Positions 5,559 to 39,398 of a stretch of 51,394 nt of DNA are shown here, one piece after another (within the stretch, counting starts at the first letter, position 1; the number at the start of each line of letters is the position of its first letter). This stretch comes from a virus. The translations under genes were made by a program, and so were the position numbers. Under the pieces are notes generated by a model that saw only the letters and a program-made list of their open reading frames with translations, ran no database searches and was not told the origin of the DNA. The stretch spans positions 1 through 51,394 of IMG/VR virus record IMGVR_UViG_3300005529_000047, one strand, 5' to 3'.

Positions 5559-5669
5559 TGATACTATGGCCCTACTACTGAGGCCGTAGCCTCTTTCATA
5601 GCGCAACTAACGCGGCACCTGACGCCGCCCCCCGAGGACTTCGGCCCTCGGTGAGGGGCGGCGTTTTTT
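5559..5669 (+). promoter_or_regulatory. Leader cassette 1: extended -10, GCCGTA core, terminator-like hairpin
   Basis: TGA plus TACTAT (5559-5567) forms an extended -10. Predicted transcription starts near 5575. GAGGC-CGTA-GCCTC (5582-5595 region) carries the GCCGTA core of the decamer found in the other cassettes, here inside a small stem. Then ACGCCGCCCC (5622-5631) pairs with GGGGCGGCGT (5655-5664), with an inner CCGAGG/CCTCGG stem, followed by T6. The gene at 5683 starts right after it. This is the most divergent member of the family. Confidence 0.6.
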
Positions 5670-5682
5670 CATTGGGGGAAAG

Positions 5683-5916
5683 TTGGCGGTCGCCCTTGCG
5701 GAACTGGGCATGGAAGATGAGTCAGCCCGACGCACCCGAGCGGCACGGTGCCCTGTTTGTGGCCAAGTGCTGGGCGTGATTTACGGTGACATCCTTGTCA
5801 TCCAGCGCGGCGGGATTCCCAATCGCACCGGGCTGAACGATAAGATCGCCGTTCCCTGCATCACCCGCACCTGCTACGGCATCTGGCACCCCGAGCCGAG
5901 CGATCTGGCGTGCTGA
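5683..5916 (+). CDS. Zinc-ribbon protein, 77 aa
   Basis: The frame begins at TTG 5683 just behind GGGGGAAAG and leader cassette 1; the spacing is short, so ATG 5710 is a possible alternative start. A CPVCGQ knuckle at about residues 23-28 and a second Cys pair (CITRTC) near residues 59-64 suggest a zinc ribbon. Its stop overlaps the next gene, whose AYEGH helix is found fused to a ribbon in the gene at 10513, so these two proteins may act together. Confidence 0.55.
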   Translation: MAVALAELGMEDESARRTRAARCPVCGQVLGVIYGDILVIQRGGIPNRTGLNDKIAVPCITRTCYGIWHPEPSDLAC

Positions 5917-6119
5917 AGGACCTAAGCCCCCAGGCGCTGCTCGACGCGGCTATCGTCTCCGCCTACGAGGGCCATCCCTACAGCGAGCCCTACCGCGAGC
6001 TTCGAGACCTGCTCGAAACCCCATTCACGGGCCATCAAAACCCTCTCCCGACGGCGCCCATCAAAAGACGGTCGGGCGCAAACGGGGTTTTGACGGAAAT
6101 GCGTAGCCGTGGCGAGTAA
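5910..6119 (+). CDS. Small AYEGH-motif protein, 69 aa
   Basis: GTG 5910 overlaps the previous stop. The N-terminal half is a helix pair with the signature AIVSAYEGHPYSEPYREL; the same pattern (AIAGAYEGH, then Y..LR..L) occurs at the C-terminus of the protein at 10513-10707. The C-terminal 25 residues are low in structure and overlie an inverted repeat (6036-6092) ahead of the recombinase. Function unknown. Confidence 0.5.
   Translation: MLKDLSPQALLDAAIVSAYEGHPYSEPYRELRDLLETPFTGHQNPLPTAPIKRRSGANGVLTEMRSRGE
6036..6092. repeat. Nested inverted repeat upstream of the serine recombinase (candidate res site)
   Basis: CAAAACCC (6036-6043) with GGGTTTTG (6085-6092) encloses CCCGAC (6047-6052) with GTCGGG (6071-6076). 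The segment also has a near-direct repeat, GCCATCAAAA at 6031 and GCCCATCAAAA at 6057. It lies 17 bases before the recombinase start. Small serine recombinases often act on such sites beside their own gene; assignment as the crossover or regulatory site is inference. Confidence 0.4.
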
Positions 6120-6840
6120 GCGAGCACCCAGCGCGGTAGATGCGGGCAAAGCCGTCGCCTACGTCCGGGTCTCTACCTCCGAGCAGGCGGAGTTCGGCGG
6201 ATCGCTCCCGATGCAGGAAGCCCGCATCCGCGCCTACTGCGAGATGGCCGGCCTGTCGCTTTCGGCGGTCATCAGCGAGGAGGGCGTCTCCGCAGGGAAG
6301 CCGCTCCACGACCGGCCGGGCGGCGCGAAGCTCCTGGCCGCGATCACGCGCGAGCATGTCGGCCACGTCGTGGCGCTCAAGATCGACCGGCTGTTCCGCG
6401 ACGTAGCTGACGCGCTCACCCAGGTCCGAGAGTGGGACCAGCGCGGGATCTCGCTCCACCTGGTGGACTTCGGCGGCGCCGCGCTGAATACCTCCTCGGC
6501 CATGGGTCGGATGATGCTCACGATGCTCGTCGCCTTCGCCGAGTGGGAGCGGAACATCATCGGCGAACGGACGGCCGCGGTCCTCGGCCACAAGAAGGCG
6601 ACGCTCGCGGTGTACGGCACGACGCCCTACGGCTACCAGCGGGTCGGCGACCAGCTCGTCCCCGATCCTCAGGAGCAGGAAGTCGTGCGGCGGATGCGCG
6701 AGCTGCGCGACGAGGGCTGGAGTCTCGGACGGATCGCGCGGGCGATGAACCGCGAGGAGATCCCGACCAAGAAGGGCGGGAAGTGGGCCGCCGAGACGAT
6801 CAGCTACATCCTGCGGAACAAGTTGCATGAGGAGGCATGA
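6109..6840 (+). CDS. Serine recombinase (resolvase/invertase family), 243 aa
   Basis: GTG 6109 opens a resolvase catalytic domain: AYVRVSTSEQ (residues 17-26) with nucleophile Ser22, then a conserved Arg-rich core (KIDRLFRDVADAL) and the long E helix (AMGRMMLTMLVAFAEWERNI). After about residue 170 a helical DNA-binding part follows (YGTTPYGYQRVG, later LGRIARAMNREEIPTKKGGKW), as in the start of the recombinase domain of large serine recombinases, but shorter. It cuts and rejoins DNA through a phosphoserine link. With the tyrosine integrase at 47470, the phage has two site-specific recombinases; this one may resolve multimers or switch DNA. Confidence 0.85.
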   Translation: MASKRAPSAVDAGKAVAYVRVSTSEQAEFGGSLPMQEARIRAYCEMAGLSLSAVISEEGVSAGKPLHDRPGGAKLLAAITREHVGHVVALKIDRLFRDVADALTQVREWDQRGISLHLVDFGGAALNTSSAMGRMMLTMLVAFAEWERNIIGERTAAVLGHKKATLAVYGTTPYGYQRVGDQLVPDPQEQEVVRRMRELRDEGWSLGRIARAMNREEIPTKKGGKWAAETISYILRNKLHEEA

Positions 6841-7074
6841 ATGGAGCACATCGCCGAACGCTGGTCGTCGATCTGGTGCCCCTGCTGCGAGGCGGTTCGG
6901 CGATTGGAGGTTGACGAGATGCCAGCCGACGCGCGCAACCTCACGGCCGGCCTCGACCTCATCTGTGCCGAGTGCCGATTCGTCGTGGCGACCTTGCATG
7001 ACACGAAGACGACGGCGGATGAGCTGGTCGCCGAAGTCGAGCGCTGGGCCCAGCATGGCCCGGCGGTCGGATAG
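6841..7074 (+). CDS. Zinc-ribbon protein, 77 aa
   Basis: ATG 6841 directly follows the recombinase stop with AGGAGG at 6829-6834 inside the recombinase end. CPCCEAVRRLEVDEMP and CAECRFVVATL give two Cys pairs about 30 residues apart, a classic zinc ribbon, followed by an acidic helix. No specific function can be named; co-transcription with the recombinase is likely. Confidence 0.6.
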   Translation: MEHIAERWSSIWCPCCEAVRRLEVDEMPADARNLTAGLDLICAECRFVVATLHDTKTTADELVAEVERWAQHGPAVG

Positions 7075-7082
7075 GAGGAACC

Positions 7083-7385
7083 ATGGACATGCAGATCGCC
7101 GCCGAGGAGCTGGCCGCGCTCGACGCCCAAGCCGCCGCGGCGCTCGGGGGCGACGCCGATCGGCTGGTGCTGCCCGAAAGGGAAACAGAGGGCGAGGACT
7201 TAACTTCAAAGTTAACTCCTGAACAGGAGGCATTCCTGCGGGGCAAGCGATGGACTATCGACCGCCCGACAGGCGTCATCATCGTGGTCCACAGCGGCCC
7301 GCTGCATGGGCCGATCCCCCGGGGTATTCGGTGTATTCCCGCGAGCAACAAGACGCTGCGCCGCAGGCGGGCGGTGCATCTATGA
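7083..7385 (+). CDS. Hypothetical protein, 100 aa
   Basis: ATG 7083 has AGGAGG at 7074-7079. The N-terminal half is an Ala-rich helix and the C-terminal half beta-strand rich (TGVIIVVHSGPLHGPIPRG), ending in a basic tail (NKTLRRRRAVHL). The stop overlaps the next gene (ATGA). No family recognised. Confidence 0.55.
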   Translation: MDMQIAAEELAALDAQAAAALGGDADRLVLPERETEGEDLTSKLTPEQEAFLRGKRWTIDRPTGVIIVVHSGPLHGPIPRGIRCIPASNKTLRRRRAVHL

Positions 7386-7549
7386 CGGCCGCCGAGTGGC
7401 AGTGGCGCTCGGCCGAGCTGCATCGGGCCCACGAGCTGCGGGTGAGCGATATCCACGCCGCCCACGACGACGAGCTCCGGGCCGAGGCGGAGCGCCACGC
7501 CGTCGAGGTGCGGGCCTTGAACGCCGAGTATCTGGGGGCGAACCGATGA
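7382..7549 (+). CDS. Small coiled-coil protein, 55 aa
   Basis: ATG 7382 overlaps the previous stop. The product is almost one charged helix, rich in His, Ala and Glu (RAHELRVSDIHAAHDDELRA), probably a coiled coil. It overlaps the next gene by four bases. Function unknown. Confidence 0.5.
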   Translation: MTAAEWQWRSAELHRAHELRVSDIHAAHDDELRAEAERHAVEVRALNAEYLGANR

Positions 7550-7752
7550 TCGCGGCCGTCGTCACCGACAAGAACGAGCGGCACAAGCTGCCGCCGACCG
7601 TCGCGCTGATCGTCGAGGAGATCGTGGCCATGGGGGAGGAGATCGAGGCGGTCTACGCGGGCGTGTTCCAGGCCGACATCGGGCCCGCCGAGGTGCACGC
7701 GCGGTTTACAAAGGTGCGCCCACGTCTGAAGCGGCCAGCCGGGGTGAGATAA
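7546..7752 (+). CDS. Hypothetical protein, 68 aa
   Basis: ATG 7546 overlaps the previous stop. The protein has an acidic helix (LIVEEIVAMGEEIEAVYAG) and a basic tail. Its TAA (7750-7752) is embedded in the -10 of leader cassette 2, so transcription of the packaging genes begins exactly where this operon ends. No family recognised. Confidence 0.5.
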   Translation: MIAAVVTDKNERHKLPPTVALIVEEIVAMGEEIEAVYAGVFQADIGPAEVHARFTKVRPRLKRPAGVR

Positions 7753-7827
7753 TAGACCCAGCCGAATAGCCAGCCGTATCCGAAATGCGTGGGCGGCATC
7801 TCTCCTGGTGAGGGGTGCCGCTTTTTT
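7745..7827 (+). promoter_or_regulatory. Leader cassette 2: extended -10, decamer, hairpin with T6
   Basis: TGA plus GATAAT (7745-7753) is an extended -10. GCCGTATCCG lies at 7773-7782. GCGGCA (7793-7798) pairs with TGCCGC (7816-7821), with further pairs inside, followed by T6 (7822-7827). GAGGAG and ATG 7846 follow. Transcription from this -10 must pass the hairpin before reaching the small terminase gene. Confidence 0.7.
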
Positions 7828-7845
7828 CGTACCCCGAGGAGCCAG

Positions 7846-8418
7846 ATGAAGGAGACCGCGCGCGCGAGGCAGGCGTGGGCCGATTACCTCGCGCTGGGCC
7901 CCGATCGGAGCCTCGAAAAGCTCCTCCAGCGGTACCAAAGCGGCACCAAGGCGGCACCAGCCACGAGCCTCACCAGGCTGAAGCTGTGGTCCCGCACGTT
8001 CGGCTGGCAGCAGCGGCTGCAGGTAATCGCCGATGAGGTGGCCCGGGCAGCCGAGGAGAAGGAGCGAGAGTATCGGCGCTTGATCATGGAGGACGGCTAC
8101 GCCCTACCGCACGAACGCGTACGCGCCCTCAAGCAGCTCGCCGGGATCCTCTTCGAGGAGCTGACTGCCGAGGACGAAGCCGCTAACCGCCTGTGGATCG
8201 ACGACGTGAAGCAGGTCGGCAAGGGCGAGGGGGCGCTGCGCGTCGACATCGAGCGCTTCAACACGGGTGAGGTCGACCAGTTCCGTCGTGTGCTGGATGA
8301 CATCGCCAAAGAGACAGGCGGCCGTGCGGCGAAGGTGGAGCACACCGGCAAGGACGGCGCCCCGATCCAGATCACGGAGATCGTCGCGGTTCTCCCGCCT
8401 GAATCTCGCGACGAATGA
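7846..8418 (+). CDS. Terminase small subunit-like protein, 190 aa
   Basis: ATG 7846 has GAGGAG 5-10 bases upstream; an in-frame GTG at 7789 lies inside the hairpin and is unlikely. Position directly before the large terminase with an ATGA overlap, an N-terminal helix-turn-helix-like part (ATSLTRLKLWSRTFGWQQRL at about residues 40-59) and a long helical middle fit the DNA-recognition subunit of the packaging motor. The C-terminal end is strand-rich (ITEIVAVLPPE). Identity rests mostly on context and size. Confidence 0.7.
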   Translation: MKETARARQAWADYLALGPDRSLEKLLQRYQSGTKAAPATSLTRLKLWSRTFGWQQRLQVIADEVARAAEEKEREYRRLIMEDGYALPHERVRALKQLAGILFEELTAEDEAANRLWIDDVKQVGKGEGALRVDIERFNTGEVDQFRRVLDDIAKETGGRAAKVEHTGKDGAPIQITEIVAVLPPESRDE

Positions 8419-9677
8419 TCGCGGCATCCCCCTCGCGGCCGCTCAAGGAGATCATCGGCGGCCAGCTCCGCTACAACTTCCATCCCGGCCAGGCCCGCGC
8501 GTGGCGGAGCCCCGCCCGGTTCGTCTTCATCATCAGCGGCACTCAGGGCGGGAAGACGTCCTTCGGTCCGCTTTGGCTCCATCGGGAAATCACGATGGAG
8601 GGCCCGGGCGACTACCTCGCTGTCGGCCCGACCTACCCGCTGATGAAGCTGAAGATGCTTCCCGAGTTCCTCTCGCTCTTCGAGGACACGCTGCACCTCG
8701 GGACCTGGCATGCGGGCGACCACTACTTCGGCTTCCACGATGGACGGACGCGCGTCATCTTCGGCTCAGCCACGCACCCCAACAGCCTCGAGTCCGCCAC
8801 CGCGAAGGGCGCCTGGCTCGACGAGTGCGGCCAGGACGAGTTTCGCCAGGGGAGTTGGGAGGCCGTTCTGCGGCGCCTCTCGCTCGCTCAGGGGCGCGCG
8901 CTCGGAACGACGACGCCCTACAACCTCGGCTGGCTGAAGCAGCAGGTATTCGATCGCTTCAAGCGACGCGAGGTCGGCTACGAGGTCATCCAGTTCGCGT
9001 CGACCGCCAACCCCGTCTTCCCCCAGGACGAGTACGAGCGCGCTCGGCGGGAGCTTCCGGACTGGAAGTTCAACATGTTCTACCGCGGCCAGTTCGAGCG
9101 GCCGGCGGGGCTCATCTACAACGACTTCCAGGACGTGTACCGGGAAGAGGGCGGCCACCTGGTCCACCCCTTCGACATCCCCGCGGACTGGCAGGCCTTC
9201 GGCGGCCTCGACTTCGGCGCAGTGAACACCGCCCGCCTCATTGCCCGGAAGCAGCCCTTGACCGACGTGCTGTACATCACCCACGAGTGGCACGGCGGCG
9301 GCCTGTCGACGCCCGAGCACGTCGGGGAGATGAAGAGGCTGACCGCGGGCATGAACTTCCGCACCTGGCACGGCGGCGCAAAAAGCGAAGTCCAACAGCG
9401 AATGGACTACCGCGCGGCAGGGCTCACCGTGCTGGAGCCGCCGATCAGCGACGTCGAGTCGGGGATCAGCCACGTCATCACCGCGCTGCGAACCTACACG
9501 CTGTACGTGTTCGACACCTGTACAGGGCTGCGCGACGAGTTCGGGACATACGCCCGCGAGCTTGACGAGGCGGGCGAGCCGACCGCGAAGATCAAGGATA
9601 AGGCGACGTTTCACCGGCTCGACGCGCTCCGGTACCTTATCCTGGGGTGCGCGCGGCCGAGGGGAGGAGTGTTTTGA
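8415..9677 (+). CDS. terL: Terminase large subunit, 420 aa
   Basis: ATG 8415 overlaps the small subunit stop. ATPase motifs are clear: Walker A GTQGGKTS at residues 42-49 and Walker B WLDECGQ at 134-140. The C-terminal nuclease begins with GGLDFGAVN (Asp266), and a late Asp lies in FHRLDALRYL. The enzyme cuts concatemeric DNA and drives it into the prohead through the portal. Length is normal for siphovirus terminases. The stop overlaps the next gene's TTG start. Confidence 0.95.
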   Translation: MIAASPSRPLKEIIGGQLRYNFHPGQARAWRSPARFVFIISGTQGGKTSFGPLWLHREITMEGPGDYLAVGPTYPLMKLKMLPEFLSLFEDTLHLGTWHAGDHYFGFHDGRTRVIFGSATHPNSLESATAKGAWLDECGQDEFRQGSWEAVLRRLSLAQGRALGTTTPYNLGWLKQQVFDRFKRREVGYEVIQFASTANPVFPQDEYERARRELPDWKFNMFYRGQFERPAGLIYNDFQDVYREEGGHLVHPFDIPADWQAFGGLDFGAVNTARLIARKQPLTDVLYITHEWHGGGLSTPEHVGEMKRLTAGMNFRTWHGGAKSEVQQRMDYRAAGLTVLEPPISDVESGISHVITALRTYTLYVFDTCTGLRDEFGTYARELDEAGEPTAKIKDKATFHRLDALRYLILGCARPRGGVF

Positions 9678-9934
9678 CGAAGAGCGAAAGGAAGCGATAC
9701 ATCGCCATCGATGAGCTGACTGCTGACTTTCTCGGCGTGTCGGCGAATCAGGAGATGCTTCGCGAGCATCTCGAATCGCTGGGAAAGCCCGATGCGTGGA
9801 TCGTCACGGTGGGAGCGACGACCGAACGCTTTAGCTTCTTCCACCGCACGCCCATCGGCATGACGGAGAAGGTTATCGACATTCCCCGCAGGGACACAGT
9901 CAGGATAGGGCGCCGCCGGTCCTGCGGGCTATAA
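9674..9934 (+). CDS. Hypothetical protein, 86 aa
   Basis: TTG 9674 is chosen because GGGGAGGAG at 9661-9669 is well spaced from it and it overlaps the terminase stop (TTGA). The product is mixed alpha/beta with no recognised domain. Its stop codon lies in the -10 of leader cassette 3 (TATAAT 9930-9935), the same arrangement as at cassette 2. Confidence 0.5.
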   Translation: MTKSERKRYIAIDELTADFLGVSANQEMLREHLESLGKPDAWIVTVGATTERFSFFHRTPIGMTEKVIDIPRRDTVRIGRRRSCGL

Positions 9935-10002
9935 TCGCACCAGACAAGCCGTATCCGAAAACGAATGGGCGGCGCCTCTTTCCCGGGGGCGCCGCCTTTT
10001 TT
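9930..10002 (+). promoter_or_regulatory. Leader cassette 3: TATAAT, decamer, perfect hairpin with T6
   Basis: A consensus TATAAT lies at 9930-9935. GCCGTATCCG is at 9948-9957, so it would be within the first 10-20 bases of RNA. GGCGGCGCC (9968-9976) pairs perfectly with GGCGCCGCC (9988-9996), followed by T6 (9997-10002). AAGGAG and ATG 10027 come next. This is the cleanest example of promoter, then terminator-like hairpin, then gene. Confidence 0.75.
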
Positions 10003-10026
10003 CGTGCCCGCACAAGGAGCGCCTCC

Positions 10027-10260: not shown

Positions 10261-10261
10261 T

Positions 10262-10707: not shown

Positions 10708-11015
10708 TCAAGGCCGAGCAGCGCGCGCGATTCCTCGCCGAGCTCGGGGACAAGCTACGCGATCTCTTCCCCGACACGCGCATCAGCGTGCGTGAGGCCC
10801 CGCACGATCCGACGTCCGGGCCGCCACGGACCGACTGGCTCGACTTCCTGGTGAAGCTCAGCACGGACTTCGGCGGGTACATGTTCCGCCAGGCGGTTAG
10901 CGACGAGCTCCTCGCTGATGCGCTCCCCGGCGCTTTCGCCGACTACGTGGTCAGCAGAATAGCCGCCGGCACCGTGGTGCGGATAATCGCCCCGGGCGCC
11001 GAGGAGGCTTGCTGA
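10704..11015 (+). CDS. Hypothetical protein, 103 aa
   Basis: ATG 10704 overlaps the previous stop (ATGA), and the stop overlaps the portal ATG (TGATG). Mixed alpha/beta with a basic N-terminal helix (QRARFLAELGDKLRDLFP); no known family. Tight coupling suggests it is made together with the portal. Confidence 0.55.
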   Translation: MIKAEQRARFLAELGDKLRDLFPDTRISVREAPHDPTSGPPRTDWLDFLVKLSTDFGGYMFRQAVSDELLADALPGAFADYVVSRIAAGTVVRIIAPGAEEAC

Positions 11016-12973
11016 TGGGCGTTGCCCGTCGCACTGTTGCCCCTGTCGGCGCCGCCCTGAAGGCCGCCGCGGCGGCAGCGCGCAAGCCGAACGAGATCAC
11101 CGCGCGCGCCGCGGTCCCGCTCAATCCGGGTCTCGTGCCAATCCCGCCCCAGCAGCCCTACGAGATCTATGCGCGCGAGGGCTACAGCCAGAACGAGCTG
11201 GTCTTCGCCTGCGTCCAGTGCCTCGCCACCTCCGCCGCCGAGCCCGTCGTCGCCGCTTACAAGGGCAACGGGAAGCAAGAGAAGCAGCTCGATCAGCACG
11301 AGGTCCTCACGCTCCTCAATCGCCCGAACAAGTGGCTCTCGCCCTACCAGTTCATCGCTGGCATCGTGGCCTATCGGTCCCTCGCGGGGAACGTGTACAT
11401 CGAGAAGGTCCGCTCCCGCGCGGGCAAGGTCGTCGAGCTCTGGCTCCTGCGGCCCGATCGCGTCCACATCCTGGCCGACCCGGACACGTACATCTCGGGC
11501 TACCGCTATCAGATTGGCGGCCATTGGTGGGACATCCCCCCCGAGGACCTGATCCACCTGCGGTCCTTCAACCCCCTCGACGATCACTACGGCATGCCGC
11601 CGCTGATGCCCGTCGCCGGCCGCGTCGATATTGACAACTGGTCCCGGGCCTTCATCGCGGCCTTCTTCCGGAACGGCGGCGTGCCCGCGGGGCTCCTCAA
11701 GGTGAAGCGGCCCCTCGAGGAAGAGGAGCGCGAGGTCATCCGGGCGCGCTTCCGGGGCGAGTACGGCGGCCCCGCCGGCTGGCACAACCTGGCCATCATC
11801 GACCTGGAGGGCGCCGACGCCGAGTTCCAGGCCGCGGGTCTCCCGATGGGCGACCGCGGGCTCGCGATGCCCGAGCTCAACTTCATCTCCGAGGCGCGGA
11901 TCGCCGGTGCCTTTGGCGTGCCCCTCTCCCTCGTCCAGACGGTGCTTGGCATGAAGTCCAGCTCCTACGCGAACCGCGAGGCGGACGAGGACTGGTTCTG
12001 GCGGGGCACGCTCGCCCCCCTGTACCGCGAGGTCAGCGACGGCCTCACGATGGGACTTCTCCCCGACTTCCCCGGCCTCGACCGGATCGGCTTCGACATG
12101 TCGACGGTGCGCGCCCTCCAGGAAGACGACGACAAGAAGCACGACCGCCTGCGGAAGGACATGGCTGCCGGCGGCATCACCCAGGAGGAGTTCCGCAAGG
12201 CGGCCGGGTACGACGATAAGATCAACCCGAACGACACGTACGTGGTCACCTCGAGCCTGCTGGCCATGCCCGTCGATAAGTTCGTGAGCGAAGAGGAAGA
12301 TCCGGATACCGAAGTCGCCGACGTCGGTGAATCGCACGGGATCGACCCGAACGCCCCGCCGACCCAAGCGAAGGGCGATGCGTCGACGCAAGCGAAGGCC
12401 CCTGCTCCGACGGGCGACGAGGTGAAGCTGTGGGCCAGCTCCATCGAGACCAAGAGCGAGAACAGTGGCTTGATGGTCTGCTGCTACGTGCCAGCCGACC
12501 TTGCCCAGAAGATCGCGATGGACACCGACAGCTATCCGGGCGCTCTCGCGCCGGCCGACCACCACGTCACCCTCGCCTATGTGTCCAACCCGACTCCCGA
12601 TCATGAGCAGGCAGCGCTCGCCGTCGCTCACATGGTCAGCGACCACCTGCCAATCGAGGCCAAGCTGAGCGGCGCCGCCCGCTTTGCAGCCGCGGCCGGC
12701 GAGGACCCCTATGTCGCCCTCGTCGACTCGCCAGCGCTCCACGAGCTGCAGAAGGAGCTAGTACAGCACCTGCAGCGCGCATCCGTGCCGGTCTCGACCG
12801 AGCATGCCTTCACGCCCCATGTGACCCTCGCGTACCTCAGCAAGGAAGACCCGACCCCGACGACCGGTCCCATGAGTGAGCCGATGCCCTTGCGGCTCGA
12901 AACGATCGCGGTGAAGCGGGGCGATGGGGCCCCGATCCTGGTCCGTCGCGTGGGAGCACCAACCGTTGCCTAG
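11015..12973 (+). CDS. HK97-type portal protein fused to a C-terminal 2H phosphoesterase domain, 652 aa
   Basis: ATG 11015 has GAGGAGG at 11000-11006. Residues about 40-430 are a standard HK97-family portal (SQNELVFACVQCLATSAAEP, LAGNVYIEK, later KSSSYANREADEDWFWRGTL), the 12-mer through which DNA enters and leaves the head. After an acidic and Thr/Ala/Lys linker, residues 484-652 form an added domain with two H-x-T motifs, H517-V-T519 in HHVTLAY and H602-V-T604 in PHVTLAYL, 85 residues apart. That is the signature of 2H phosphoesterases (LigT/2'-5' RNA ligase type). The portal alone would end near residue 440-480. The partner substrate is unknown; tRNA or cyclic-nucleotide ends are possible. 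Confidence 0.85.
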   Translation: MGVARRTVAPVGAALKAAAAAARKPNEITARAAVPLNPGLVPIPPQQPYEIYAREGYSQNELVFACVQCLATSAAEPVVAAYKGNGKQEKQLDQHEVLTLLNRPNKWLSPYQFIAGIVAYRSLAGNVYIEKVRSRAGKVVELWLLRPDRVHILADPDTYISGYRYQIGGHWWDIPPEDLIHLRSFNPLDDHYGMPPLMPVAGRVDIDNWSRAFIAAFFRNGGVPAGLLKVKRPLEEEEREVIRARFRGEYGGPAGWHNLAIIDLEGADAEFQAAGLPMGDRGLAMPELNFISEARIAGAFGVPLSLVQTVLGMKSSSYANREADEDWFWRGTLAPLYREVSDGLTMGLLPDFPGLDRIGFDMSTVRALQEDDDKKHDRLRKDMAAGGITQEEFRKAAGYDDKINPNDTYVVTSSLLAMPVDKFVSEEEDPDTEVADVGESHGIDPNAPPTQAKGDASTQAKAPAPTGDEVKLWASSIETKSENSGLMVCCYVPADLAQKIAMDTDSYPGALAPADHHVTLAYVSNPTPDHEQAALAVAHMVSDHLPIEAKLSGAARFAAAAGEDPYVALVDSPALHELQKELVQHLQRASVPVSTEHAFTPHVTLAYLSKEDPTPTTGPMSEPMPLRLETIAVKRGDGAPILVRRVGAPTVA

Positions 12974-12983
12974 GAGAAAGACC

Positions 12984-13334: not shown

Positions 13335-13338
13335 CCCG

Positions 13339-14136: not shown

Positions 14137-14342
14137 GCCGCGCCCAACCACCGAGCCTGCCGCCGGGCGTCGTGCAGCTCCGGTGCTGCGCCTGCGGCTA
14201 CTTCCTGATGAACGCGCGGGACTTCGGCCAGGCCGTGTGCGAGAAATGCGGCGCCGAGACCACCTACCGATCGAGAACCGAGCGGCGCCGTGGTACGCTT
14301 GAGACACCAGAGGGCCAGGGTCCGACCCTGAGCCGCACATAG
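14133..14342 (+). CDS. Com-like zinc-ribbon protein, 69 aa
   Basis: GTG 14133 overlaps the MuF-like stop (GTGA). The core reads LRCCACGYFLMNARDFGQAV then CEKCGAETTYR, a spacing like phage Mu Com and related ribbons that bind mRNA and adjust translation. The C-terminus is polar. The gene end overlaps the upstream part of leader cassette 4. The RNA-binding role is inference from resemblance. Confidence 0.6.
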   Translation: MSRAQPPSLPPGVVQLRCCACGYFLMNARDFGQAVCEKCGAETTYRSRTERRRGTLETPEGQGPTLSRT

Positions 14343-14419
14343 CTCTTCTCAGGCAGCGTTAGAGATCGCCGTACCCGTAACTAAGGGCGGCTCCCCATAT
14401 GGGGAGCCGCCCTTTCTTT
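14291..14419 (+). promoter_or_regulatory. Leader cassette 4: extended -10, decamer variant, 12-bp hairpin
   Basis: TGG plus TACGCT (14291-14299) is an extended -10 lying inside the end of the Com-like gene. The decamer variant GCCGTACCCG is at 14368-14377. GGGCGGCTCCCC (14385-14396) pairs perfectly with GGGGAGCCGCCC (14401-14412), followed by a T-rich TTTCTTT. The distance from -10 to decamer is the longest in the family. Confidence 0.65.
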
Positions 14420-14438
14420 GTGCTCGGAGAGAATTTCC

Positions 14439-14861
14439 GTGGTCGCATTCAACAAGTACAACTGCTTCCCCCAGGACGTCGGCCGCAAGGTCCACAACCT
14501 GAACGCCGACACGCTCAAGGGCGCTTTCACGAACGCGCCTCCGAACGCCGCGACGCACGCGGTCCTGGCCGACATCACCGAGATCGGCGCGGGCAACGGC
14601 TACTCGGCGGGTGGCGCAACTGTGGGCTCGACGAGCTACGCGCAGACCGCTGGCGTCGCGAAGCTCGCGGGCAACGACGTCACGATCACGGCCTCGGGCG
14701 GCACCATCGGCCCGTTTCGCTACGTCGTGCTCTACAACGCCACCGCTCCAAGCGGCCCCTTGATCGGCTGGTGGGACCGGGGCGCATCCCTGACCCTCCA
14801 GGACGGCGAGAGCTTCACCCAGGACTTTGCGGACAATACCCAGCTCATCTCGCTGACGTAA
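14439..14861 (+). CDS. Probable virion structural protein, 140 aa
   Basis: GTG 14439 has CGGAGAG at 14425-14431 and gives the N-terminus VAFNKYNCFPQDVG; an in-frame TTG at 14418 would lie in the T-tract of the hairpin. The protein is beta-rich with many Thr, Gly and Asn and ends in a strand pair (TLQDGESFTQDFADNTQLIS). Similar small proteins stand among the head genes of many siphoviruses. Role in decoration or assembly is inferred from place. Confidence 0.6.
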   Translation: MVAFNKYNCFPQDVGRKVHNLNADTLKGAFTNAPPNAATHAVLADITEIGAGNGYSAGGATVGSTSYAQTAGVAKLAGNDVTITASGGTIGPFRYVVLYNATAPSGPLIGWWDRGASLTLQDGESFTQDFADNTQLISLT

Positions 14862-14868
14862 GGCCAGT

Positions 14869-19528: not shown

Positions 19529-19533
19529 GGATT

Positions 19534-19620
19534 TGCTACCATCTTCGGTGACAGCCATATAGATCCTGCGCCGTATCGACAGCAGTAGGCGGCCTCCCGA
19601 TCTGGGGAGGCCGCCTTTTT
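19534..19620 (+). promoter_or_regulatory. Leader cassette 5: extended -10, decamer variant, hairpin with T5
   Basis: TGC plus TACCAT (19534-19542) is an extended -10 just after the previous stop. The decamer variant GCCGTATCGA is at 19570-19579. GGCGGCCTCCC (19588-19598) pairs with GGGAGGCCGCC (19605-19615), followed by T5. The protease start at 19703 is farther from the hairpin than in the other cassettes; 19621-19702 holds no other feature I can see. Confidence 0.65.
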
Positions 19621-21312: not shown

Positions 21313-21415
21313 TTGACCACCTAAATAGACAGCGCCGTATCCGCAAGCAACGGGCGGCTCCCCGAGTGGGGGCGCCCTTCTTTCGTGTTCGGCGCCACCG
21401 CGGGGGAGCCGCCCG
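21313..21415 (+). promoter_or_regulatory. Leader cassette 6 (before capsid): decamer and two competing hairpins
   Basis: GCCGTATCCG is at 21334-21343. The arm CGGGCGGCTCCCC (21351-21363) can pair with the near arm (TGGGGGCGCCC, 21367-21377, imperfect), followed by TTCTTTC, or with a more distant perfect arm GGGGAGCCGCCCG (21403-21415). The two structures exclude each other. TTGACC at 21313-21318 could be a -35, but no good -10 is seen before the decamer. The capsid start follows at 21449. Confidence 0.6.
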
Positions 21416-22965: not shown

Positions 22966-23024
22966 GCCGTATCCGAGAGCGACGGGCGGCGGTCCTGGGG
23001 AGACCCGGGGGCGCCGCCCGTTTC
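22966..23024 (+). promoter_or_regulatory. Leader cassette 7: decamer and hairpin
   Basis: GCCGTATCCG is at 22966-22975. CGGGCGGCG (22983-22991) pairs with CGCCGCCCG (23012-23020), with extra pairs possible inside, and TTTCTG follows. No clear -10 is seen upstream, so here the capsid transcript may run through. AAAGGGAAC and ATG 23046 follow. Confidence 0.6.
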
Positions 23025-25420: not shown

Positions 25421-25475
25421 GCCGTATCCGTAGCAAAGGGCGGCCGCCGGAACTTCCGGCGGCCGCCCTTTTTTT
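25421..25475 (+). promoter_or_regulatory. Leader cassette 8: decamer and 15-bp perfect hairpin with T7
   Basis: GCCGTATCCG is at 25421-25430. A perfect 31-base inverted repeat (25438-25452 with 25454-25468) follows, then T7 (25469-25475), the strongest terminator-like element in the window. No consensus -10 lies upstream (only CGAATC-like sequence). GAAAGGAAC and ATG 25504 for the major tail protein come next. Confidence 0.7.
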
Positions 25476-26493: not shown

Positions 26494-26497
26494 GAGT

Positions 26498-26563
26498 ATT
26501 CCGCGCGGAATGAGCGAGGAGATGGGTGGTATCATGCGCCACGCCGTAGGCTACGGCGTGGCG
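26498..26563 (+). promoter_or_regulatory. Moron promoter region: 14-bp palindrome, extended -10, hairpin leader
   Basis: The palindrome ATTCCGCGCGGAAT (26498-26511) covers the -35 region of an extended -10, TGG plus TATCAT (26527-26535). Immediately after it, CGCCACGCCGTAG and its complement (26537-26563) form a perfect hairpin that contains the GCCGTA core but lacks a T-tract. The palindrome may be an operator; the same 14-mer occurs once more at 13359. Confidence 0.55.
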
Positions 26564-26574
26564 AGCGCATCGCT

Positions 26575-26919: not shown

Positions 26920-26930
26920 GTGCTACACTT

Positions 26931-27003
26931 GCCCTAGACAGAGCCACCTCCAGCCGTATCCGAAAACCGCGGGCGGCCCCCGTTATGGGGGGCCGCCCTT
27001 TTT
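26931..27003 (+). promoter_or_regulatory. Leader cassette 9: extended -10, decamer, hairpin with T5
   Basis: TGC plus TACACT (26931-26939) is an extended -10. GCCGTATCCG is at 26953-26962. GGGCGGCCCC (26971-26980) pairs with GGGGCCGCCC (26989-26998), followed by T5. AAAGGAG and ATG 27026 follow. It serves the tail chaperone, tape measure and tail tip genes. Confidence 0.7.
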
Positions 27004-27025
27004 GTTGCCCGCGAAAGGAGCCCGC

Positions 27026-27606: not shown

Positions 27607-27613
27607 GCCTGCA

Positions 27614-31762: not shown

Positions 31763-31765
31763 CCG

Positions 31766-32227: not shown

Positions 32228-32231
32228 GGCG

Positions 32232-34559
32232 ATGACGTCGCTCCAGCCCCTCTCCGGCTTCCTCACGGCGGACCTCTCCTCCGTCAGCACGACGGTGGAG
32301 GTGGATGACCCGACTCTCGCCACCGGGACCGACCAGATCGCGATTCTGGCGCCCTCATCCCAACGCGTCGAGATCATGACCATCACGGGCGGCTCCGGTA
32401 CCCACGCGAGTCCGTGGACCGTCGTGCGGGCCCAGCGCGGCACTACGGCGACAGCCCACGGCCAGGGCGCTAAGGTGCAGGGCGTCAACTTTCGTCTCAC
32501 CGTGGGCGATCTGGACTTCACCATGCGCTGGAACAATCTCGTCGAGGGCGATACCTCCCCGGGCGGCAACGACCAGCTGTCGTTCAAGCGGTTCGTCCCT
32601 GACCCTGTAGTCGTTCCCGGCATGGGGGACCTCGTGTACCTCTCGCGCTCGACCTCTACGACCGTCGGGGTGTGGACCGACAAAGGGGTCTGGACGGGCC
32701 TCGTGGAGGACGCTGGGCCCCACTACTACCCCAAGGGAGGCGCTGATCTGAACCTGCAGGCGGTCGGCTACCGGGAGCACCTCGGAGACATGCCGTACCA
32801 GGCATCGAAGGTGCTCGATCCCGCGACGTCGATCCCCCCGGGCCTGTCGGTCGCCGGCATCGTCGAAACGGCGATCCGAGACCAGTGCCAGCTCATCCTC
32901 AGCGACTTCAGCCACGTGAGTGCCGGCGGCCAGGGAATCCTCTACGCCACGGGCGATCTGCTCGGAAAGACGCCGCTCCAGCTCATTACCGAGTACACGC
33001 CGATCGGCGACGGCTTTGTCCCGAACGAATGGGCCGTCCGCGGCTTCGGCACGAACGGCGCGTACTTCGAGCTGAAGCGGAAGCCTGAAAGCCCGCTCTA
33101 TCAGATCAACATCGAGGACACGATTGACGGGGTGACGGTGCACCCCCGACGGAGCAACGTCTACACCACGGTGCTGGTCCGGTGGCATGACGGCGTCGCC
33201 CAATGGACCAACGAAGACGCCCTCGTGAGCCTCCACGGAATCCGACGCGGCATTCTGATCGACGCCTCCTCCTTCATCGGGGATGGAGACACGGCGACGA
33301 GCTATGCGAAGACGCTGGCAAACCTTCTCGGGACCTTTCGCCCGATGGTGGGCGAGGCCCGGATGTACCTCACGAAGCCAATCTCGCTCGTCGCTGGCGG
33401 CACCGTCGAGCCGTGGGATGTGGTGGCGGGGGAGATGCTCCAGGTGCTGAAGGCCGGCTCGATCCTGTCCTCCAACAACACCAACCTGCCGTATCCGCCG
33501 GGCTTCTTCATCCGCTCGGTGAAACGCGACTACCAGGCGGGCACGATCACCTTCGCGACGAGCGACGAGGAGTCCGAGATCGGACGGATGATCGCGCGGG
33601 TCGCCCATACGGAGCTCGCGCGCCAGGACTCCCAGACGAAGGCCGTGACCGGCCCGCAGTGGTCCAACCCGAACACCCCGAGCCTCCCGGTTCCCTCGCC
33701 GCTTCCGCCCTCCATGCGGCTATCCAAGGCCCAGGACGGGCGGGTTGGCTATGAAGACTCCGCCGATGGCACGGACACGGGCACCGCGGCCCTGGAGTGG
33801 GGCGGCTCAGGGACCGACAACCCCGCGCTCATCGATACGAACGTGGACAGCTCGTTCGCCCTTCACACGCCAATGCTCATTCACTCGGGCCAGGTGCGGG
33901 TCATCCCCTTCAACCCGACGAACCCGAAGCCGTCCTGCACGATCGAGGTCTACCAGATCAAGGTCACCCTGGACGACGCGACCACCGGCGCCCAGTCCTA
34001 CGCATCCCCAACCCTCATCGACACGATCACCATCGACGAGACAAGCGTCGAGGCGGAGCCGCTCCTCTCGGGGGCAGACCCGGCGACGCAAGCCTACGTG
34101 CTGAAGAAACGGCGCCAGTACAAGCCGCCGAAGGAGCTGGGCGCCAACGATTGGCTGATCGGCCGCATCTCCGCAAACGATCCGACGCTCGGCGTGCGCT
34201 ATGCGAACGTGAGCCTGCGCTACCAGAAGATGAGCGGGCAATCCGAGAAGCCGGCCGGCCAGGCCGGCGGCGTCGCGGCCACAGCCCGTCAAGCCCAACG
34301 CGGGGGAGACCAAAGCTCCCCGAACGCCACCAGCGTCGGCGCGACTTTCATCGTCACGACGAGCGACTACGCCCGCGTCGAGATCCAATATGGGCTTCAG
34401 ACAAACGGCCTCGTGCTGGGCTGGAGCAGCCGGTCGCCGCTCGGGAAGATGCACGTGCTCACGGTCCCCACCGTACCGCGAGACGCACTCTTCTACAACA
34501 TCGTCATGTACGACCAGTACGGTGGCAAATCTGTCGACAACGGCAACATTCTCTACTAG
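32232..34559 (+). CDS. Tail tip/baseplate hub protein, 775 aa
   Basis: ATG 32232 lies five bases after the previous stop. The N-terminal domain (TTVEVDDPTLATGTDQIAI and the following ERIEIMTITGG-type repeat) is a small beta domain found on tail tip proteins; the middle resembles tail hub domains (NIEDTIDGVTVHPRRSNVYT); the end has fibronectin-like strands (VEIQYGLQTNG). It probably forms the tail tip that holds the fibres. The exact class is uncertain. Confidence 0.65.
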   Translation: MTSLQPLSGFLTADLSSVSTTVEVDDPTLATGTDQIAILAPSSQRVEIMTITGGSGTHASPWTVVRAQRGTTATAHGQGAKVQGVNFRLTVGDLDFTMRWNNLVEGDTSPGGNDQLSFKRFVPDPVVVPGMGDLVYLSRSTSTTVGVWTDKGVWTGLVEDAGPHYYPKGGADLNLQAVGYREHLGDMPYQASKVLDPATSIPPGLSVAGIVETAIRDQCQLILSDFSHVSAGGQGILYATGDLLGKTPLQLITEYTPIGDGFVPNEWAVRGFGTNGAYFELKRKPESPLYQINIEDTIDGVTVHPRRSNVYTTVLVRWHDGVAQWTNEDALVSLHGIRRGILIDASSFIGDGDTATSYAKTLANLLGTFRPMVGEARMYLTKPISLVAGGTVEPWDVVAGEMLQVLKAGSILSSNNTNLPYPPGFFIRSVKRDYQAGTITFATSDEESEIGRMIARVAHTELARQDSQTKAVTGPQWSNPNTPSLPVPSPLPPSMRLSKAQDGRVGYEDSADGTDTGTAALEWGGSGTDNPALIDTNVDSSFALHTPMLIHSGQVRVIPFNPTNPKPSCTIEVYQIKVTLDDATTGAQSYASPTLIDTITIDETSVEAEPLLSGADPATQAYVLKKRRQYKPPKELGANDWLIGRISANDPTLGVRYANVSLRYQKMSGQSEKPAGQAGGVAATARQAQRGGDQSSPNATSVGATFIVTTSDYARVEIQYGLQTNGLVLGWSSRSPLGKMHVLTVPTVPRDALFYNIVMYDQYGGKSVDNGNILY

Positions 34560-34570
34560 GAGACACGCCC

Positions 34571-34954: not shown

Positions 34955-37087
34955 ATGACGACCCAGTACATCGATTCCTTCCGGACGAACCCGACCGATC
35001 CGGACACGACGCTCGGGAGCGCCTACACGGCCGGCGACTCCAGCATCACCGTCTCGAGCCTCCCGGCCGACGTGGCCAGCAAAGGCGCGTCCTTCTGGAT
35101 CAAGATCGATTCGGAGCTATTTCGTGTCACGGGTCTCTCAGGGACGGGCAATCTCACGTGGGCGGTGACGCCGGATGGACGCACGGCCGACGTCGGCCAC
35201 ACGACGGGCACCGGCGTCTACCTGGAGCATGTCGGGGCGGACCACGAGGTGCTGCGCGACCGGCAGTATGTGACGGCTGTCGACGAGACGGCCAACCTCC
35301 CGAACAGCCGCACCTTGGTCCACGACCACAGCGGGAGCGCCGAGGGGACGGTCCTGGCCCCAACGCAGGTCAAGATCAGCCAGGACTGGGGGCTCACGGG
35401 CGTCCTGACGCCGAGCCAGATCACGAGCGACCAGAACGACTATGCGCCGTCCGGAATCGCGACGTGCAGCGTCTTGCGCCTCTCCACCGACGCTAGCCGC
35501 AACCTGACGGGCATCACGGCACCATCGTACGGGCGCCGGCTCGTGGTGGAGAACGTCGGTTCCCACCCGCTCGTCTTGAAGGACGCGAACACGGGGAGCG
35601 CAGCGGCGAATCGGTTCGCCCTGGGCGGCTCGGACGTCACCCTCGCCGCAGGCATCAACGCGGAATTGATCTACGACACGACCTTGAGCCGCTGGGTGAT
35701 GATCGGCGGCACCGGCTCAGGCTCGGGAACGGTTACCGAGGCGAGCCTGTCCCTCTCGGACGTGACCACCGACAACGTGACGAGCACGGCCCATGGCTTC
35801 GCCCCGAAGAGTCCGGCCGACGCCACGAAGTTCCTGAACGGGGCCGCGACGCCGGCCTACGCCCAGGTGAAGGACTCGGACCTGGCCGTCTCCGACGTGA
35901 CGACGAACAACGCCAGCACGTCGGCCCATGGGTTCTTGAAGAAACTCTCCAACGTCGCCTCGCAGGTCATGAACGGCGTCGGCAACTGGGTTGCCTATTC
36001 CTGGAACGACCTGACCGATAAGCCGAGCCTGCCGACCTACACGATCACGAACCAGGTCACCGACCGGACCTACGACGCCGATGCGACGACGGTGGACGAG
36101 TTGGCCGACGTGATCGCGACCCTGATCGCCGACCTCGGCGCGGCCGGGATGGGCGGTATCGGCGGGAGCAGCAGCGGCAACACACCGACGAATGAGTTCT
36201 ACTGGCCGCCCCCGGTGCGAAGCGCCGACACCCTTGACCTCGACGCCAATAAGCAGTGGTGGCGCAAGGTCAACACGCCGACCGGCGGCGTCATCTACAC
36301 GACGGCGACCGCCGAGAGTATCGCCACAACCTACGGGGACAACATCCTAAAATGTGTGGCCGCGGCATCGGGCGACGGACTCAAATCGACATGGACCTAC
36401 GCGAACGAGCGGCGGGTCAAGAGCGGCCGCTACATGGCGTTCTACGTCGCCGTGTACCTCGTGACGGGCGGGCGGACGGTCACGATCTCCGCGGTGACAT
36501 CGACGCCGACGACACTCGCCACGCAGACGGTAACGACGACGGGCTCCTGGCAGTTGGTCAAACTGGAGCCGGGCTCGACGGCGCTCGACGGGGCGTCCGT
36601 GGACTTCAAGGCGACGTTAGATGGGGCGGGCACGTTCTATGTGCGGCCGCTCGGCGCATGGGTGTCCAGTACGTCGGCGCCTTCTGCCGTCGCGCTCCCG
36701 AACCGTCCCCATCTCGTCGTGGGGCGGGACGCAACGACGCTGGTTGATCTCACGAGCGCCGCTGACCCGAACGCGTGGACGGACGTGGTGTGTACGACGC
36801 CTGCGAGTGCTCTGGCGATTCACGCGCATTGCTTCGTGACCCTATTCAGCTCGAACACGTCCTCCTGGGATCTTGGCGCCAGGCGGAAGGGCTCATCGGA
36901 CGCGTTCGCAACGGAGAACTGCTACATCTGCGCGAAGCCCGGCACATCGGGCATCCGTGAGACGGCCGGATTCTCAATCATCCTGGACGACGCCAACACG
37001 TTCCAGTACCTCCTGCATCGAACAGGAGGATCCTCAACGCTGACGAGCGGCGCGCTCTCGCTCCACAGCTTCGAGGAGTGGGGCTAA
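34955..37087 (+). CDS. Tail fibre protein, 710 aa
   Basis: ATG 34955 directly follows the previous TAG. The N-terminal domain (SSITVSSLPADVASKG, FWIKIDSELFRVTGLS) is a tail-attachment beta domain. In the middle are paired repeats typical of fibres (SLSDVTTDNVTSTAHGFAPK; LAVSDVTTNNASTSAHGFLK) with a WNDLTDKPSLP linker. The C-terminal half is beta-rich and probably binds the receptor. It shares this design with many siphovirus fibres. Confidence 0.75.
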   Translation: MTTQYIDSFRTNPTDPDTTLGSAYTAGDSSITVSSLPADVASKGASFWIKIDSELFRVTGLSGTGNLTWAVTPDGRTADVGHTTGTGVYLEHVGADHEVLRDRQYVTAVDETANLPNSRTLVHDHSGSAEGTVLAPTQVKISQDWGLTGVLTPSQITSDQNDYAPSGIATCSVLRLSTDASRNLTGITAPSYGRRLVVENVGSHPLVLKDANTGSAAANRFALGGSDVTLAAGINAELIYDTTLSRWVMIGGTGSGSGTVTEASLSLSDVTTDNVTSTAHGFAPKSPADATKFLNGAATPAYAQVKDSDLAVSDVTTNNASTSAHGFLKKLSNVASQVMNGVGNWVAYSWNDLTDKPSLPTYTITNQVTDRTYDADATTVDELADVIATLIADLGAAGMGGIGGSSSGNTPTNEFYWPPPVRSADTLDLDANKQWWRKVNTPTGGVIYTTATAESIATTYGDNILKCVAAASGDGLKSTWTYANERRVKSGRYMAFYVAVYLVTGGRTVTISAVTSTPTTLATQTVTTTGSWQLVKLEPGSTALDGASVDFKATLDGAGTFYVRPLGAWVSSTSAPSAVALPNRPHLVVGRDATTLVDLTSAADPNAWTDVVCTTPASALAIHAHCFVTLFSSNTSSWDLGARRKGSSDAFATENCYICAKPGTSGIRETAGFSIILDDANTFQYLLHRTGGSSTLTSGALSLHSFEEWG

Positions 37088-38472
37088 TGCCGGCGCTGGG
37101 GAATTTCGCGCTCGCATCGTCCTCGCGTCAGCCGGGGGATGGGCTCCCGCTGCAGGCGGGGTCATCTGGCCACTTTCTCGCCGGGCACATCCTAGCCGGC
37201 TATACCGAGCAAACTAACCCGGTGAACACGACAGGGTCCACCAATATCTACGTCTACCACTGCGACGCCAACGGGAATTACATCGACCGCCATCTCGTGC
37301 AGGCCATCGGACCTCACACCAACGCGGCGCAGGGCGGAGTATCGAGACTTCTCTATAACCCACATCGTAATAGGATCGAAGTCGTCATCACGTCAAGGGC
37401 GCTCCTGAGTGCATTTCCCCTTATCTCTGACCCGGCTTGTTCCGACATGATCGTTGAACTCGATATGGCGGGGAGTCTCCATCCGTCTGTGTGGGAATTT
37501 GTCACGCCAACCAACCAGTTCGGAGATACCCAGATTAACCCGCCGAACCTCTTCGCGTTCAAAGACGGCTATATGGTTGTCGACGGTATGTACAACACCG
37601 CCCCGATAGGCCCGAACTGGCCTGCTGGCTCCGGGGCGTTGCTTGATAACAACATGAACCAGTTGAGCACCTTCACTAATCTCCTAGCCTTTGGGAGCAC
37701 GGAGCCCGGGCAGATCATTCTTGGATGGTGGCCAAACTACGGTCAGAATGCCTTGTTGTGTTGGGGGAATTTCCCTGGTGGACCAGTCAATATCAATTGC
37801 TTGTTCGTCTACGACTTCGTCACGACAGTTGCGAGTCTTGTGTGGGCCCCAGTATTCCAGACAGATCCAACTACCGGAGATCACTACGTCCAGATCATCG
37901 GGGGAGAGGATGCTTATTTCCGTACGGTGATCATTGACGGAGATTTTGTCCATGTGTTTTTACGTCCGCAGACTGACGGCACCGGCCCGGGCATCACGAC
38001 CGCAACTGCCGTAGCAAACACTGGATGGTTGAAAGTCGATCTTCACGGGACAGCGACCTTCACGCCGTTCAGCGCTGGGCAGATTTACAACAACTTCGTC
38101 TCTCTTGGGCATTTTCCGTTTGTTCTTGACTTTGCACTAACAAATGACAAGTCCGCCGTCTGGTACGCAGGCTTCATTCAGAACAACGCTACGGGGCACG
38201 CGACAGATGGAACAACCCAGCAGGAAGAGGCGCGGCTATACAAGTTGACGTTTGGGAGCGGGGGGGTCGGAGATACGACTGGCGCAACCACCTTCAAGGA
38301 CGTGGTTTCTCCATTGCCGCTGATGTTTGGCGCCCCACCAAACGCATTCCCAAATGGCGCGTATGCCTATCTCGGTGCTCCGTATGTGCTCCCGAACCTC
38401 TCTGCCCCCGGCCTGGCCCGCTACCCGGCTCGGAATGCTGCTGCCCAGTGGGGCCCGACGTTGCCAAGCTAG
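37087..38472 (+). CDS. Beta-propeller-like receptor protein, 461 aa, lower G+C
   Basis: ATG 37087 overlaps the fibre stop (TAATG). Rich in aromatic residues, Asn and Gly, with repeated strand units (TNIYVYHCDANGNYIDRHLV; FAFKDGYMVVDGMY; ILGWWPNYGQNALLCWG) that suggest a propeller. From about 37300 to 38300 the G+C and codon choice are visibly lower than in all other structural genes, with many TTT, AAT, ATT and TTG codons. This suggests recent gain of a receptor-binding gene. No enzyme motif is seen. Confidence 0.6.
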   Translation: MPALGNFALASSSRQPGDGLPLQAGSSGHFLAGHILAGYTEQTNPVNTTGSTNIYVYHCDANGNYIDRHLVQAIGPHTNAAQGGVSRLLYNPHRNRIEVVITSRALLSAFPLISDPACSDMIVELDMAGSLHPSVWEFVTPTNQFGDTQINPPNLFAFKDGYMVVDGMYNTAPIGPNWPAGSGALLDNNMNQLSTFTNLLAFGSTEPGQIILGWWPNYGQNALLCWGNFPGGPVNINCLFVYDFVTTVASLVWAPVFQTDPTTGDHYVQIIGGEDAYFRTVIIDGDFVHVFLRPQTDGTGPGITTATAVANTGWLKVDLHGTATFTPFSAGQIYNNFVSLGHFPFVLDFALTNDKSAVWYAGFIQNNATGHATDGTTQQEEARLYKLTFGSGGVGDTTGATTFKDVVSPLPLMFGAPPNAFPNGAYAYLGAPYVLPNLSAPGLARYPARNAAAQWGPTLPS

Positions 38473-39303
38473 ATGTCCCTCCCCGGCATCGAGATTTTCC
38501 GTCAGAGCGTCACCGGGATTACGCGCGGACAGATCGCGGTCGGCAGTAATCAGTCCTATATCGAAATTCTGAACGCCGATGGGACGCTCGCCCAACACCT
38601 CTCGACCTCGAACCCCTACATCACGGGCGTTGCCATCAACCCGTCAACGGGTGATCTTTTCGCCACCACGACGACGAGCCTCACGGCCGCAAACACGCCG
38701 CACCACATCGACGTATTCCCAGACCGAAGCGGGCTGCTCGTGGCTGGTGTGCCGTCCATCGGCATGCTGCATCTCATCAAAACAGACTTCGACGGCAACG
38801 TGCTCCAGACATGGACCGGTCTTTCCACCGACACGTCGTGGGCGCAACAGCTTGTTCGTCTTAGCATTGCGTGCGATTCCACCACAGTTTGGCTGACAGA
38901 CATGCTTCGCACGATCTTTCGCTACGACCTCAACTCCTCGACCCAACTCACGAACTACGAGCAGTTGGCCGCCGACTCACCCTACCTCTACGGTGCCGTT
39001 CGGGTGCTCCCCGGTGAGAGCGGCGACAACCGCGATGTGATCGTTGCGATGACGCGGACCGGCGATGGCCCGCAACAGGCGCTCTGTCTCGTGGGTGGCG
39101 GCTTCCACTGGGTCGACGAGGTACAGCCGTCGAGCGGCACCTACCATATCCAGAAACGGAAGAACGGCGACGGCACGACGGTGGGCGATCCTGTCGCCGT
39201 GAAGGCAAAGCCCGATGGGACGAACGGACCGGCGCTCAGCCTCGCGAGTTACTTCAATCCGTGCGCCGCGGCTACTTGGGTCCGCGCCCGCCTCATCGAA
39301 TAG
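38473..39303 (+). CDS. Beta-propeller-like tail protein, 276 aa
   Basis: ATG 38473 directly follows the previous stop. Repeating strand units of NHL/SMP-type (ITGVAINPSTGDLFATTTTS; MLHLIKTDFDGNVLQTW; VWLTDMLRTIFRYDL) indicate a propeller. Base composition returns toward that of the genome. Likely a second receptor-binding or fibre-tip protein. Family not named. Confidence 0.6.
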   Translation: MSLPGIEIFRQSVTGITRGQIAVGSNQSYIEILNADGTLAQHLSTSNPYITGVAINPSTGDLFATTTTSLTAANTPHHIDVFPDRSGLLVAGVPSIGMLHLIKTDFDGNVLQTWTGLSTDTSWAQQLVRLSIACDSTTVWLTDMLRTIFRYDLNSSTQLTNYEQLAADSPYLYGAVRVLPGESGDNRDVIVAMTRTGDGPQQALCLVGGGFHWVDEVQPSSGTYHIQKRKNGDGTTVGDPVAVKAKPDGTNGPALSLASYFNPCAAATWVRARLIE

Positions 39304-39306
39304 GTT

Positions 39307-39398
39307 TGGTATCCTAGTCACAGCGCGAGAGCCCATAGTCCCATAGCCGTACCTGAAACCCTTGGCGGCACTCCCATTTCGGGGGTGCCGCCTTTTTT
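39307..39398 (+). promoter_or_regulatory. Leader cassette 10: extended -10, decamer variant, hairpin with T6
   Basis: TGG plus TATCCT (39307-39315) is an extended -10 immediately after the propeller gene. The decamer variant GCCGTACCTG is at 39346-39355. GGCGGCACTCCC (39364-39375) pairs with GGGGGTGCCGCC (39381-39392), followed by T6 (39393-39398). GGAGA and GTG 39419 follow, opening the HNH and lysis genes. Confidence 0.7.

Follow-up and report, generated by a model that had tools for sequence, protein, structure and literature searches.

The window, by which we mean the whole stretch of 51,394 bases analysed here, is a virus record of 66% G+C whose + strand encodes, in this order, terminase, portal, protease, capsid, tape measure and holin-like proteins, as assigned by PHROGs and Pfam scans of its proteins. 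The C-terminal domain of the portal gene product (11009-12973) matches 'RNA ligase' PHROGs and may be a 2H phosphoesterase joined to the portal. Two recombinases of unlike kinds are also encoded: a serine recombinase inside the late region (6109-6840) and, on the opposite strand, a tyrosine integrase (47470-48666). GenBank phages gave no DNA match to positions 5-29 kb of the window. The closest proteins found in IMG/VR were terminase large subunits, with up to 64% identity, and when the window proteins were compared with those of these relatives only the two terminase subunits were clearly common to both. Rfam searches of the window and of eight related loci found no match.

Ten leaders in the late region

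Ten leaders between 5.56 and 39.41 kb carry a strong hairpin followed by a U-tract (Table 1). An earlier note on this DNA had described ten gaps of one layout (decamer, hairpin and T-tract), with the decamer at six positions, variants of it at 14368, 19570 and 39346, only its GCCGTA core at 5583, and a -10 site upstream of the hairpin in seven. Our scans bear this out: all ten hairpins have the U-tract, nine of them come with the decamer or a variant, the six decamers are exact, the three variants are real, the leader at 5583 is as described and the seven -10 sites agree. The note had further called these gaps the only large ones of the region, and here a coding-potential scan does recover all ten, but it also finds a gap at 26.5 kb and several small ones.

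Table 1. Promoter, decamer and hairpin positions in the late-region leaders of the window.
Feature	Position	Strand	Remark
Leader 1 extended -10 TGATACTAT	5559..5567	+	one of six + strand TGNTANNNT
Leader 1 decamer core only, GCCGTAgcct	5583..5592	+	weakest member
Leader 1 terminator-like hairpin, then TTTTTT	5620..5665	+	-34.3 kcal/mol, z -5.0
Leader 2 -10 TGAGATAAT	7745..7753	+	
Leader 2 decamer, exact	7773..7782	+	
Leader 2 terminator-like hairpin + TTTTTT	7791..7823	+	ahead of terminase small subunit (ATG 7846)
Leader 3 -10 TATAAT	9930..9935	+	unique in window
Leader 3 decamer, exact	9948..9957	+	
Leader 3 terminator-like hairpin + TTTTTTCGTGCCCG	9967..9997	+	before small gene (10027) upstream of portal gene
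Possible extended -10 TGGTACGCT	14291..14299	+	overlaps ORF end
Decamer, one mismatch	14368..14377	+	
Terminator-like hairpin + TCTTT	14383..14414	+	ahead of gene 14439-14861 (phrog_644)
Extended -10 TGCTACCAT	19534..19542	+	
Decamer variant GCCGTATCGA	19570..19579	+	
Terminator-like hairpin + TTTT	19587..19616	+	ahead of head maturation protease gene
Decamer, exact	21334..21343	+	promoterless
Weaker hairpin + TTCTTTC	21352..21377	+	ahead of major capsid gene (21449)
Decamer, exact	22966..22975	+	30 nt past capsid gene stop; promoterless
Terminator-like hairpin + short T-tract	22982..23021	+	ahead of gene 23046 (phrog_5707)
Decamer, exact	25421..25430	+	promoterless
Terminator-like hairpin + TTTTGTGCCCG	25435..25471	+	
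Extended -10 TGCTACACT	26921..26929	+	immediately past stop codon
Decamer, exact	26953..26962	+	
Terminator-like hairpin + TTTTTGTTGCCCG	26971..26998	+	
Extended -10 TGGTATCCT	39307..39315	+	
Decamer variant GCCGTACCTG	39346..39355	+	
Terminator-like hairpin + TTTTTTGTGCCCG	39364..39392	+	before gene upstream of holin-like genes

Compared with shuffled sequences, nine of the ten hairpins are far more stable (energies from -23 to -39 kcal/mol, with z between -4 and -7), while that of 21334 is weaker (-17.3 kcal/mol, z -1.7) and faces a second, competing 3' arm further downstream. In this cassette (21349-21413) one 5' arm has two alternative 3' arms, the local one with a T-rich tail and the other, lacking the tail, some 40 nt further downstream, before the major capsid gene. 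Judged at the sequence level, the cassette hairpins have the make-up of intrinsic terminators, i.e. a GC-rich stem and then a U-tract. The stem is maintained by covariation. Most lower-stem columns are invariant in an alignment of nine leaders, and in the eight full-strength decamer hairpins six pairs, GGCGGC/GCCGCC, never change except for one G-T at the first, while the seventh pair is C-G, A-T, G-C or T-A. Since the lower pairs are invariant and the seventh covaries, it is the structure that is conserved in the upper stem and the sequence in the lower one.

The exact decamer, GCCGTATCCG, has a seventh copy in the window that the note had missed (33488-33497); it lies within the ORF 32232-34559 and has no hairpin. 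No exact copy occurs beyond the late region. Allowing a single mismatch gives 14 matches where 7.0 would be expected, and none of 100 shuffles gets to 14. In nine leaders the decamer, intact or changed at no more than two bases, stands 7-9 nt ahead of the hairpin, and GCCGTA is invariant in their alignment. The leader at 5583 has this core some 30 nt from a hairpin with C-rich then G-rich arms; because GCCGTA alone is present in 1.8% of 60-nt windows, it is weak taken alone, and it is the weakest of the ten members, its promoter and hairpin nonetheless being good. In a search of IMG/VR the exact decamer-hairpin pattern gave 74 single matches, none with the full cassette, and in the class of G022 it was found in 8 of 298 genomes, once in each, with reversed-pattern controls giving a similar rate. 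These collection-wide matches look like chance, and the exact decamer is specific to the window phage.

The whole window has only six copies of the motif TGNTANNNT on its + strand (5559, 14291, 19534, 26527, 26921 and 39307), and five of these sites lie 15-110 nt upstream of cassette hairpins, the one at 14291 being less certain. The leaders at 7773 and 9948 have TGAGATAAT and TATAAT as their -10. No promoter was found for those at 21334, 22966 and 25421, which come 30-39 nt after a stop codon, and a strict -35/-10 scan gave nothing useful across the late region. Spacing from promoter to decamer varies (12 to 68 nt) while that from decamer to hairpin is nearly fixed, which argues that the decamer belongs to the terminator element and not to transcription initiation. 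The sixth TGNTANNNT is found in another late gap (26527-26561), where an extended -10, TGGTATCAT, runs directly into a perfect palindrome, GCCACGCCGTAGGCTACGGCGTGGC, holding the decamer core on both strands and no T-tract. A GAATAG- or AAATAGC-like word was seen about 11-13 nt after the -10 in leaders of divergent phages (L107, L146, L153, L160 and L387) and at 7767 in the window, yet at 5/29 against a shuffle maximum of 5 it is at the edge of chance.

Leaders in other phages

We examined 94 terminase-related loci, with the window left out, for the same order of elements. Of their 43 late-strand terminators, 12 have TGNTANNNT 30-80 nt upstream, whereas four control bins yield 1-3 of 43 each; when only the 32 terminators followed by a start codon are counted, 11 have the upstream motif, against 1-2 in controls. 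Promoter-terminator-gene leaders recur in phages that have only the terminase genes in common. In G001, the contig of L107, three leaders of constant spacing have hairpins of -27 to -32 kcal/mol and, at a fixed place, a common word, AGCCCTCGG, instead of the decamer; one of them precedes the terminase small subunit, as the leader at 7773 does in the window. Likewise, L302 has a -10, a hairpin and TTTTTTGTTGCCCG, then a likely terminase small subunit gene (identified by eye). The layout is absent upstream of that gene in most terminase small-subunit relatives, and L081, a 59%-identical relative, has no such terminators. The hairpins of G004 and G005 come after stop codons, with no obvious promoter.

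A second leader class was seen in unrelated phages, the scan pattern being GCCGCC, six T and TGCCCG. It consists of CGGGTT, a hairpin, a linker such as ACGTAAGAAC (ACGYAAGAAC), a GGCGGC/GCCGCC hairpin, T6, GTTGCCCG and the ribosome site. Matches were found in L236, L238, L244, L255, L263, L266, L271, L274 and L285, with TTTTTTGTTGCCCG after the second hairpin, in one or two copies per contig and in several cases ahead of structural genes (ORFs judged by eye); none has an Rfam match. The U-tract region may pair with an upstream A-rich sequence, which a C-G to U-A change in 3 of 10 supports. The second hairpin has a loop complementary to the 5' strand of the same hairpin, so that two folds compete. 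A model built from another leader class, R1, also matches six window leaders, but this is partly circular, as the R1 seeds had been found with a window-derived pattern.

Proposed attenuation and its alternatives

The reading that we favour, and whose chances we consider evenly balanced, is that the cassettes attenuate transcription close to the promoter, and that an antitermination signal specific to the phage, which includes the decamer, relieves this attenuation. Host RNA polymerase would start at the extended -10 promoter in most gaps, or arrive from the upstream gene at the three promoterless leaders, transcribe a short decamer-bearing leader and run into a strong intrinsic terminator ahead of the ribosome site. 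At a late stage of infection, polymerase would be let through by an antitermination signal particular to the phage, the decamer being the sequence-specific part of that signal. Structural and lysis modules would then be switched on together, and stray transcription of the prophage would be cut short. We infer from the leaders that the hairpins would terminate transcription, that their read-through would be regulated with the decamer as its signal, and that this regulation would involve a factor of the phage or an alternative fold.

What the earlier note had proposed, a global attenuation/antitermination or RNA-processing system acting through the decamer, is supported in part: terminators between promoter and gene are found in the window and, independently, in relatives, while the decamer's part in it is one that we infer. 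The note had also held that hairpins unaccompanied by the decamer in relatives would refute the proposal. Taken literally this is what relatives have, but G001 has another conserved word in its place, and a replacement of this sort is to be expected of a phage-specific signal. Placing a terminator behind the promoter of the same unit is of use only where read-through is partial or regulated. The recurrence of this arrangement ahead of late modules, the confinement of exact decamers to the late region and the change of word in G001 all fit such a signal.

The cassettes could instead be ordinary terminators of the upstream unit, whose partial read-through sets gene dosage, the next promoters merely overlapping the gap and decamer and stem being copied along with the element. 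We regard this as rather unlikely, even though terminators behind capsid genes are common in phages, three cassettes are promoterless and come shortly after a stop codon, and the G004 and G005 hairpins are placed in a similar manner. With five of six TGNTANNNT sites upstream of hairpins, terminators follow promoters, unlike the placement of a plain upstream terminator; in seven leaders the new transcript would be stopped too. Neither the enrichment of the promoter-terminator order in relatives nor the conservation of decamer and lower-stem sequence, while the upper stem diverges, is expected of ordinary terminators. Attenuation with antitermination is hence the likelier of the two, because of the promoter-terminator order in the window and in terminase-related phages, and because of G001.

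A promoter and a terminator within 40-90 nt, with a conserved decamer left unpaired 7-9 nt ahead of the latter, could also make each cassette a small-RNA gene, the decamer being an exposed seed and the ten siblings acting in trans on host or phage messages. This is improbable, given that a ribosome site and start codon follow closely behind most hairpins, that three copies are promoterless and that no target was identified. Quite improbable, too, are hairpins serving as 5' stabilisers or processing sites of late messages, which would start at, or be cut near, the hairpin base. The decamer would then be a nuclease site or a promoter element, and 7-9 nt before the first stem G would indeed suit an element just upstream of the start; however, most leaders have their sigma70-type -10 sites further upstream, the alignment has no conserved partner element further upstream, and the U-tract is typical of terminators. 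We give the least credence to cassettes as homologous linkers for module exchange among phages, conserved by recombination rather than regulation. They do sit between functional modules, among strongly mosaic neighbouring genes of which only the terminase genes are clearly common to relatives, but the upper stem changes on both sides with pairing kept, which recombination does not need, promoters are built in, and the exact decamer-hairpin pattern is found in no other phage beyond chance.

As to how the favoured attenuators might be released, a NusG-like protein (PF02357) is absent from the window and 21 relatives, with positive controls, and the proteins scanned against PHROGs and Pfam include neither Q nor another antitermination family. 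As long as the 3' arm has yet to emerge from polymerase, the nascent leader allows the decamer to pair with CGGGCGGC in the 5' arm, leaving a bulge of two bases, a fold of consistent shape in several leaders. Such pairing, as a hypothesis, would explain the invariance of both decamer and lower stem. In the window, permuted decamers do as well in 199 of 1000 cases (20%), and covariation between decamer and 5' arm does not exceed that of shuffles; the corresponding fold of G001 beats 97.5% of permutations (25/1000), with three sequences only. Antiterminators of the Bgl/Lic type (RAT hairpins) are short bulged hairpins, and one hiding the terminator 5' arm is possible in the window as well; unlike in Bgl/Lic, the window pairing is without statistical support and no such protein was found.

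Known systems and a possible class of attenuators

The literature on phage leader terminators provided analogues only. Functionally, the nearest is Q at PR'/tR': in lambdoid phages the late genes have a promoter, PR', and an intrinsic terminator, tR', that is read through once the phage factor Q loads onto polymerase (PMC6606751). The late genes of the window also have a promoter and then an intrinsic terminator, a likeness of sequence only, but in up to ten leaders instead of one. Moreover, the Q site is within the promoter while the window decamer keeps to the hairpin (12 to 68 nt from the -10), three copies are promoterless, and the proteins scanned include no Q.

Other systems share single aspects with the window leaders, and we claim membership in none of them. 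The put RNA of HK022, of about 70 nt and two stem-loops, lies close to the promoter and acts on terminators far downstream (PMC9378689). It resembles the leaders as a short RNA element near a promoter and ahead of terminators, whereas the window has a 10-nt word directly before each terminator, one consistent hairpin and no Rfam match. The conAn system of pLS20-type conjugation operons combines a protein and an RNA at the start of one operon, and the many intrinsic terminators in its long gene region were proposed to block stray transcription unless antitermination is loaded (PMC8955417). Many intrinsic terminators inside a long gene region are a feature of the window too, but here every terminator stands in a separate leader, in most cases with a separate promoter. 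In cluster K mycobacteriophages, the available part of the source describes repeated conserved sequences of unknown function with an inverted repeat just before many start codons, SAS occupying the start of the gene and ESAS, an imperfect repeat of 17 bp, preceding it (PMC3203893). To that extent, the window leaders similarly repeat a short conserved sequence and an inverted repeat ahead of genes; their decamer precedes the hairpin instead of lying at the start codon, and that part of the source gives no promoter-terminator order for SAS/ESAS, unlike what we see in the leaders.

We tentatively suggest, as a doubtful proposition for the present, that the leaders represent an undescribed but widespread class of late-gene attenuators, in which each phage has its own leader word, read by its own factor or pairing with the 5' arm of the terminator, and in which modules are held by promoter-proximal terminators and released together. 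If true, many uncultured phages would hold their late genes by terminators placed after the promoter and freed by a phage-specific signal, which would differ between related phages as N/nut specificities do. It would also offer a sequence-level rule by which new antitermination systems could be sought in phages whose hosts are unstudied.
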